NCBI GenBank assembly: GCA_031289055.1
Contig: JAITQE010000016.1
Span: forward strand, 1-64,000
DNA from: Candidatus Endomicrobiellum porotermitis
Lineage (GTDB): Bacteria > Elusimicrobiota > Endomicrobiia > Endomicrobiales > Endomicrobiaceae
Length of the DNA: 64,000 bases
Direction: 5' to 3'
Part shown: piece after piece, positions 29,279 to 30,766 of the stretch
Numbering within the stretch: the first letter of the stretch is position 1
How the letters are laid out: every line of letters begins with the position of its first letter
Position numbers and translations under genes: made by a program
The notes under the pieces: generated by a model
Told to the model about the DNA's origin: nothing
Seen by the model: the letters and a program-made list of their open reading frames with translations, nothing else
Database searches by the model: none

Positions 29279-29677
29279 ATGAACTCATTAAAATTGAGAA
29301 TCGCTTACGCCGATACGGACCAAATGGGAATGGTTTATTATGCGAATTATTTAACGTTCTTTGAGCTAGGACGCACAGAGCTTCTCAGAGAGACAGGTCT
29401 TGAATATAAAGCAATAGAAGAACGCGGTTTTTATTTCCCTGTTATACACGCTGAGTGCAAATACTTAGCTCCCGCAAAATACGACGACATTATAGAAATA
29501 GAAACTAAGCTGTCAGAAATAACCGCAGCAAGCATAACTTGTTCCTACGAGGTAAAATGCGACGGAAAACTCTTAGTTTCAGGAAAAACAAAACACTATT
29601 TTGTAAATAAAGATTTAAAGCCTGTCCGGTTTCCAAAAGACATAAAAGAACTATTGGAAAAGAATCTTGAAAAATAA
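29279..29677 (+). CDS. YbgC-type acyl-CoA thioesterase (hotdog fold)
   Basis: The 132-residue hotdog-fold protein has the 4-hydroxybenzoyl-CoA thioesterase signature YADTDQMGMVYYANYLTFFE, including the catalytic aspartate in DTDQMG, and FELGRTELLRE. It hydrolyses short-chain or phospholipid-related acyl-CoA/ACP thioesters in the cytoplasm. It begins a plus-strand run with tadA, which overlaps it by 11 bases if a TTG start is used. Confidence 0.9.
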   Translation: MNSLKLRIAYADTDQMGMVYYANYLTFFELGRTELLRETGLEYKAIEERGFYFPVIHAECKYLAPAKYDDIIEIETKLSEITAASITCSYEVKCDGKLLVSGKTKHYFVNKDLKPVRFPKDIKELLEKNLEK

Positions 29678-30146
29678 ACAATTCAAAGATGCTTCTTACT
29701 TCATGTCTCAGGCTTTAAAGGAAGCCCAAAAAGCTTATGAACGTGGCGAAGTTCCGGTAGGAGCGGTTATAACTTTTGATAATGAGATAATTTCCCGAGG
29801 ATTTAATAAATGTATTATGCTGTCCGATCCCACAGCTCACGCGGAAATTATTGCTCTTCGCAAAGCCTCTAAAAAATTAAAGAACTATCGTTTGAACGAT
29901 TGCCGTATATATGTTACAATTGAACCCTGCCCGATGTGCGCAGGCGCTCTTGTAAACGCAAGAATAAAAAAAATTATTTTTGGCTCATACGACGTAAAAT
30001 CCGGAGCTTGCAAAAGCGTATTTGAAATAATAAACAATAAAAAACTCAATCATCAGATAGAGTTTGCCGGCGAAAAAAAAGAATATTTAAGCGCAGAATG
30101 CGCCGGAATAATTAAAAAGTTTTTCAAAGAAAAACGTAAAAAATAA
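29667..30146 (+). CDS. tadA: tRNA adenosine(34) deaminase TadA
   Basis: TadA converts A34 to inosine in tRNA-Arg(ACG). The zinc deaminase site is visible as H58-A-E60 in PTAHAEIIALR and C88-x2-C91 in EPCPMCAGALVNARI. The frame opens with TTG at 29667, giving 159 residues; an ATG at 29703 gives 147 residues and starts closer to the usual position, and neither has a strong ribosome site. The stop is only two bases before the mature tmRNA sequence, so the two may share a transcript. Confidence 0.93.
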   Translation: MKNKQFKDASYFMSQALKEAQKAYERGEVPVGAVITFDNEIISRGFNKCIMLSDPTAHAEIIALRKASKKLKNYRLNDCRIYVTIEPCPMCAGALVNARIKKIIFGSYDVKSGACKSVFEIINNKKLNHQIEFAGEKKEYLSAECAGIIKKFFKEKRKK

Positions 30147-30148
30147 AC

Positions 30149-30536
30149 GGGGGTGAACAGGATTCGACGGGAGTGGCAGAGGTAATGACAGCAGGCCGGA
30201 GTTGGTCGATGGCTCCGCAAAAATCGACTGAAAAATAAACAACAAAACTGTTGTTCCTACGCACAACGTTAACTCCTTTATGGGCTTTGGCGTTTTGCCG
30301 ATAGCTGTTTAAGGCGGCTTCGTTTTGCTCTAAACACCTGCTATAGGGATAAAACGACAAGAGCAGGTTAGTTTTAAGCGGCTTGCGTCGTCAGTTTAAA
30401 ATGAAATCAAACGGCGCTGGTTTATAACGTAGTACCGTCCGATTACGGCGTTATAAACGAGATAAATTTTCGGACTAAGCCTGTAGCGGTCTTACTAAAA
30501 CATTTTCGGACGCGGGTTCAATTCCCGCCACCTCCA
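30149..30536 (+). ncRNA. ssrA: tmRNA (ssrA)
   Basis: The 5' end GGGGGTGAACAGGATTCGAC and the 3' end with GGGTTCAATTCCCGCC and CACCTCC form the tRNA-like half (acceptor GGGGGTG/CACCTCC). A first pseudoknot is visible: CGGAG pairs with CTCCG, and GTCGAT with ATCGAC. Aligning the stretch after the pseudoknot with E. coli tmRNA puts the resume codon at AAC 30241. That frame runs 23 codons, starting NKTVV and ending LPIAV, to a TAA at 30310-30312. The tag is longer than usual and does not end in ALAA. CCA is not encoded. The RNA rescues stalled ribosomes and tags their products for proteolysis. Confidence 0.95.
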
Positions 30537-30661
30537 TCTTATTTAACGATGATTAAACGGTAGGAAATAATTCAGCGAATTAGTTTGCTTTAGAGCAGCT
30601 AATTGAAGAAAAAGAAAGAATAAAACTCAGCATAAAGCTGGATATTTTTTTAATTTTCCGT

Positions 30662-30690: not shown

Positions 30691-30766
30691 TGCCCGATGG
30701 TGTAATTGGTAACACGTCTGCCTCTGGAGCAGAAGTCTCCTGGTTCGAGTCCAGGTCGGGCAGCCA
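30691..30766 (+). tRNA. tRNA-Gln (anticodon CTG), CCA encoded
   Basis: The plus strand folds with acceptor stem TGCCCGA/TCGGGCA, anticodon stem TCTGC/GCAGA around CTCTGGA, and T arm GGTTCGAGTCC. The anticodon CTG reads glutamine. Unlike the other tRNAs here a CCA end is present in the DNA. A transposase scrap follows within ten bases. Confidence 0.95.

Follow-up and report, generated by a model that had tools for sequence, protein, structure and literature searches.

Tags encoded by tmRNAs are commonly regarded as short labels that evolve slowly, and passages of a 2021 review give a bacterial range of 8–35 amino acids (aa) (PMC8012679). According to excerpts of two further papers, the tag of Mesoplasma florum is longer and is read by Lon (PMC9382460), and AUAG or AUAA is preferred upstream of the resume codon (PMC4236655). 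Candidatus Endomicrobiellum, the genus of termite-gut flagellate endosymbionts studied here, has been described as comprising every flagellate endosymbiont of the family Endomicrobiaceae that has been characterised to date, with progressive genome erosion (PMC11257099); the main text of that paper mentions neither tmRNA nor ribosome rescue, ClpX or proteases. A full-text literature search, from which subscription journals were mostly absent, returned no paper that dealt with tmRNA tags of the Endomicrobium group in its title or the start of its abstract, and the tmRNA Website (PMC4383926) may list tags of Endomicrobium strains.

The window, a stretch of 64,000 nucleotides at the start of contig JAITQE010000016.1 in the Candidatus Endomicrobiellum porotermitis assembly (GCA_031289055.1), carries a genuine and complete one-piece tmRNA gene (ssrA) on the forward strand at positions 30149–30539. 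The match to Rfam RF00023 is full-length (model positions 1–374; 162.3 bits against a gathering score of 47, E = 1.6e-65), the whole RNA has a fold z-score of −3.5, and this is the single locus above the RF00023 cut-off in the genome (G000; 1.04 Mb, 92% complete). ARAGORN found ten tRNAs in the window and did not call the tmRNA at 30149–30539, suggesting that annotation may be underestimating the number of tmRNAs with long tags. The acceptor stem extends to 30535, after which come the discriminator A at 30536 and then TCT, CCA not being encoded. Reading of the sequence by eye placed a G30151-U30533 wobble in this stem, and an acceptor-stem G-U pair is the alanine identity element of tmRNA. An AUAA tetramer with two further bases (ATAAAC; 30235–30240) sets the resume codon, AAC, where a frame of 23 codons opens (NKTVVPTHNVNSFMGFGVLPIAV; 30241–30309) that runs to a TAA stop codon (30310–30312) inside a stem. 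Between the tag stop and the gene's terminal 75 nt, the Rfam alignment delimits a pseudoknot region of 152 nt (30313–30464). On the same strand, a 159-aa ORF (29667–30146) encoding a deaminase (Pfam PF14437 and PF00383), which we take to be tadA-like, ends 2 nt 5′ of the tmRNA, and a tRNA-Gln (CTG) called by ARAGORN lies downstream at 30691–30766.

Tags were read in 83 genomes. The order contributed 68, the window included, out of 83 genomes (37 of 41 in the genus, 24 of 35 in other Endomicrobiaceae genera and 7 of 7 in other families), and the remainder came from other orders of the class (10 of 12) and from other classes (5 of 5); three of these tags (G002, G069 and G019) come from incomplete RNAs. 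In the frame set by the spacer, 62 of the 68 order tags end in Ala-Ala, whereas frame −1, which stays open for a median of 3 codons, gave 0 of 68 and frame +1 gave 1 of 68. For 14 disjoint pairs of tags that matched in length, measured 45 nt or more and diverged by no more than 25%, differences at codon positions 1, 2 and 3 numbered 21, 25 and 52 (p = 4.5e-5). The Ala-Ala ends in this frame, together with the third-position excess, indicate that tag length shifts between species while the end motif is still reached in frame, and by this comparison between genomes the frame at 30241–30312 is judged correct. An earlier reading made without comparison to other genomes (the sequence-only reading) had placed a tmRNA here, which the Rfam match and fold bear out, and had given the residues (NKTVV...LPIAV from AAC) and the codon count exactly. 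Its preference for this frame over the alternatives, which in the window read QQNCCSYAQR and TKLLFLRTTLTPLWALAFCR, agrees with the counts of Ala-Ala ends over the 68 order tags, and its placement of the DNA in Elusimicrobiota was right as well. No loss of the tmRNA is claimed for the 15 genomes of the order in which a tag could not be read; two (G079 and G098) are cut by contig ends, and in the remaining 13 a 13-base pattern, which matched in one of two class genomes tried, had no hits, candidate scoring in tagless genomes covering at most 150 candidates per genome.

In relatives from the wider class and phylum the tag is 8–12 aa long (15 tags; e.g. ANTYAYAA), with an Ala-Ala end in 10 of 10 class tags and 0 of 5 phylum tags. 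In other families of the order (n = 7) the tag is 9 aa in three genomes and 21–24 aa in four. Endomicrobiaceae outside the genus have tags of 18–30 aa (24 tags), often near DKQIVPNSMLKPFMGFGAMPIAA, and a conserved form, about D/N-x-x-IVP...KPFMGFGAMPIAA, is found in many members of these genera; the tag of Endomicrobium proavitum (G070) is 20 aa. The range in Candidatus Endomicrobiellum is 14–50 aa (37 tags), with six tags longer than 35 aa, namely those of G013, G026 and G063 (43 each), G006 (47), G019 (49; near a palindromic contig end but kept in the counts) and G032 (50). The Ala-Ala end is kept in 31 of the 37 genus tags, and the tag starts with N or D in 35 of them and in all 24 from other genera of the family. 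As judged from these sequences, the long tag is common to the Endomicrobiaceae and not private to the window species. The unusual length reported by the sequence-only reading is thus right as to the 23 codons but not as something exceptional, because this length, although roughly double that of most tags, falls within 8–35 aa and is the family norm; likewise, the start is unusual among bacteria but is not peculiar to this tag. By the same comparison, the outlying feature of the window tag is its last residue, V for A.

The window tag ends in IAV and so lacks the C-terminal Ala-Ala of a ClpXP-type ssrA degron. Its last codon, GTT (Val), is one base from the GCT (Ala) norm, and of the 52 genomes with ClpXP intact the window genome is the only one whose tag does not end in Ala-Ala, which upholds the earlier description of the end as non-canonical. 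Five other genus tags depart from Ala-Ala, ending in MVA, LVA, MVA, LFA and SVV. In Salmonella, AAV-ended ssrA tags were degraded at a rate between those of untagged and LVA-ended proteins, and without ClpXP the AAV tags were not degraded at all and the LVA tags in part, but mNeonGreen, among four proteins assayed, showed no difference between the two ends (excerpts of PMC11003136). By analogy, the PIAV end probably slows ClpXP degradation, which makes the previously proposed change in protease recognition plausible.

Between its ends, which are mostly held, the tag changes unusually fast in Candidatus Endomicrobiellum. The tmRNA core of the window genome is 0.96 identical to that of G022 and 0.957 identical to that of G025, whereas tag identity is 0.26 (23 versus 35 aa) and 0.42, respectively. 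Pairs with a core identity of 0.88–0.92 give a median tag identity of 0.32 in the genus (89 pairs) versus 0.74 among the other genera of the family (18 pairs); these pairs are not independent of one another, and the comparison omits four rows, of which three are partial and one is untrimmed. One tag is common to G015, G021, G029 and G061 at core identities of 0.95–0.985, and repeats in frame inside tags, a 42-nt unit in G019 and a 12-nt unit in G062, were recognised by eye. Outside the genus, third codon positions hold 34 of 56 differences, a strong excess (p = 2.5e-5), whereas inside it they hold 18 of 42, a weak one (p = 0.13), suggesting that peptide function may be loosened in the genus.

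RNA pairing is suggested at both tag ends. The last codons can mostly pair with bases 3′ of the stop, forming in the window a helix-5-like stem (AGCUGUU/GGCGGCU; 30303–30319), and a stem of at least 5 bp was found in 64 of 68 sequences, taking the best stem in each and with no shuffle control. The base change from Ala to Val in the window keeps a G-U pair in this stem, and G028 retains the stem as GUUGU/ACAAC; pairing around the stop probably helps to hold the tag end. At the start, a putative 7-bp hairpin (AACAACA/TGTTGTT; 30238–30255) has the resume codon in its 5′ arm. Over 61 genus and family rows, 67.6% of cells pair at this register versus 25–43% when slid, and shuffles reach the covariation score in 53 of 500 cases and the pairing percentage in 72 of 500. 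The hairpin is therefore unproven as the cause of the conserved IVP codons, its covariation not being clear of the shuffles, and conserved codons alone could explain the register-specific pairing. When the count was confined to 36 of the 61 rows, chosen after hairpins had been seen in them, 76.4% of cells were paired and 20 of 500 shuffles reached the covariation score.

The genes smpB, clpP, clpX, lon and ftsH are intact in the window genome. SmpB is encoded on contig C21 (28439–28861; 165 bits, model positions 3–141 of 144), and contig C13 carries contiguous genes for trigger factor, clpP, clpX and lon, with domains confirmed by Pfam. ClpX has the RKH and GYVG motifs, and ClpP scores well over the cut-off for PF00574 and strongly but below the curated cut-off for TIGR00493, as in every genome compared. 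ClpXP absence, which would go with a Lon-read tag of the Mollicute type, was thus not found here. In G032 and in the cultured Endomicrobium proavitum, lon directly follows the trigger-factor gene and clpP and clpX are gone; in G028, trigger factor, clpP and clpX were not found before lon, and in G013 clpP is whole and clpX has many stops. Loss or decay of clpP and clpX beside lon was recorded repeatedly (loci L138, L139, L140 and L141). Lon was found in 74 of the 83 order genomes and FtsH in 80, and each in 38 of 38 good ones. Among the genomes whose tag could be read, an end other than Ala-Ala occurs in two of the four ClpXP-lost genomes (G032 and G028, not G070 and G013) versus one of 52 intact genomes, the window, a post hoc contrast that ignores kinship (Fisher p = 0.011; 0.027 within the genus), and in three of 12 genomes scored as neither. 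The tmRNA-core tree (65 rows), with 25 of its 62 inner branches well supported, is too open for independent origins of these ends to be counted. A decayed second clpX fragment (residues 308–409, broken) was seen on contig C10 of the window genome (L143). G024 has, beside an intact locus, a second trigger factor-clpP-clpX-lon locus with clpP and clpX broken (contig C26; L144), suggesting that this bin may hold two strains.

Several other explanations of these tags were weighed. That the resume codon lies in another frame, giving an ordinary short tag, might be argued from the Asn resume codon and the PIAV end, both unusual among bacteria, and from the missing ARAGORN call, but it is contradicted by the confinement of Ala-Ala ends to the spacer-set frame and by the early closure of frame −1, and we regard it as extremely unlikely. 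An error in the metagenome consensus, with the real tag ending in PIAA like its relatives, would need only the single base that separates GTT from GCT and would fit the isolation of this end among ClpXP-intact genomes. However, five further genus tags depart from Ala-Ala, indicating that the end drifts in the genus, and the G-U pair in the stop stem is kept, although this is compatible with an error too; an artefact of this kind seems improbable.

The protease losses bear on two wider alternatives. Long tags might reflect a switch of protease, the tag having been lengthened for reading by Lon as in Mollicutes, and the longer Lon-read tag of Mesoplasma florum, the wide presence of Lon in the order (74 of 83 genomes, 38 of 38 good ones) and the persistence of lon where clpP and clpX are gone point that way. 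Yet long tags occur in many family members that have clpP and clpX, so length does not follow ClpXP loss, and the Ala-Ala end is kept in most tags; such a switch is therefore rather unlikely. It is more conceivable, though short of probable, that the tag middle no longer has a peptide function in the endosymbionts and drifts within limits set by the need to avoid stop codons and by RNA pairing at the ends. The collapse of tag identity in the genus despite high core identity, the weak third-position excess there (18 of 42) and the departures from Ala-Ala, commoner among genomes with ClpXP lost (2 of 4) or not located (3 of 12) than among intact ones (1 of 52), would be expected on that account, whereas the Ala-Ala end in 31 of 37 genus tags and the strong excess outside the genus speak against it. 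Drift of the middle is also compatible with the explanation that we prefer, a working tmRNA with a family-wide long tag that has a fast middle and is read by ClpXP, with a slowed Val end, or by Lon where clpXP is lost, and this account as a whole we consider highly probable.

Four of the genus tags (G013, G026, G063 and G006; 43–47 aa) contain a hydrophobic run of 14–15 residues, then basic residues and an (M/V)(P/S)xAA end, and have the four highest 15-residue hydropathy means among the tags (2.15–2.27). With the G063 tag as a protein query, eight genomes gave three matches, all at tmRNA loci, namely its own and those of G013 and G026 (E = 1.4e-9 and 2.8e-6); the G006 tag was not matched. An insert from elsewhere in the genome was rejected, as no protein other than at a tmRNA matched in these eight genomes, and outside the tmRNA loci a DNA search with 90 bases against six genomes yielded nothing but matches of 14–31 bases with E > 0.05. 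The tmRNA-core tree places all four tags together in a group of 11 rows that has weak support. In G013 clpX is broken, in G026 and G063 clpP and clpX are intact, and G006 is among the genomes scored as neither. Some Endomicrobiellum tags might have gained a membrane-embedding segment that sends rescued proteins to the inner membrane and FtsH, which would be trans-translation that sorts as well as tags. This idea, drawn from the hydropathy of the tags, is a long shot; a membrane span would normally be longer than this run, which may be a simple T-rich insertion.

Some other tmRNAs in the set have peculiarities of their own. In three genomes of 0.4–0.5 Mb (G016, G030 and G033; L057, L058 and L059), tmRNAs of 270–307 nt have 36–95 nt between the tag stop and the last 75 nt, versus 152 in the window, and downstream pseudoknots seem to have been lost; the tag still ends in LAA or MAA and smpB is still matched, although in G033 the score falls slightly short of the curated cut-off. 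The G038 tmRNA (L042) is otherwise normal, with the tag ANENLALAA, but its PK1 loop holds an insertion of some 115 nt in which a long inverted repeat was recognised by eye. In G019 (contig C108; L130), the first ~65 nt of the tmRNA are missing after the deaminase gene, near the palindromic contig end, and this tmRNA is possibly an amplification chimera.

Under the preferred explanation, ribosomes stalled in the window species would be rescued by ordinary trans-translation with SmpB, and Ala followed by NKTVVPTHNVNSFMGFGVLPIAV would be appended to the rescued proteins; what goes beyond this, namely tag function, protease routing and slower turnover, we infer. The long tag would have been inherited in common with other Endomicrobiaceae genera, and in Endomicrobiellum its ends would be held by the C-terminal degron and probably also by pairing of the RNA at the stop, with substitutions, in-frame insertions and deletions, and repeats quickly altering the middle. 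ClpXP is the probable reader of the tag in the window species, probably slowed by the Val end, and Lon or FtsH could take its place; in genomes that have lost clpXP, the likeliest reader would be Lon, whose gene comes next in the run. In this family a tag that is long by descent varies and reaches up to 50 codons in an eroding endosymbiont genus, and the matching protease has been lost several times. As E. proavitum is cultured and combines a 20-aa tag with the absence of clpP and clpX, the reader of the tag after ClpXP loss becomes experimentally approachable outside the Mollicutes.

Carsonella (PMC4131195) resembles the present case as an endosymbiont with an odd tag end and a tag frame derived from strain comparison, but its SmpB lacks the central loop and tail, whereas the window SmpB matches nearly the whole model. 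The engineered AAV, ASV and LVA variants of ssrA share with the window tag an end predicted to be a weak degron, here Ala-Val, but the window end is natural and lies inside an unrelated long tag. The extended tags of Mollicutes are likewise long, with Lon available, and ClpXP is lost in some Endomicrobiaceae as well; however, in this family ClpXP is also present with long tags, the end is mostly Ala-Ala and the middle is highly variable. With the canonical one-piece tmRNA the window gene shares the full-length model match, the acceptor G-U, AUAA followed by two bases, the stop stem and SmpB in the genome, and it differs from that of E. coli (tag AANDENYALAA) in a tag of 23 aa that starts with Asn and ends in IAV and not in LAA.
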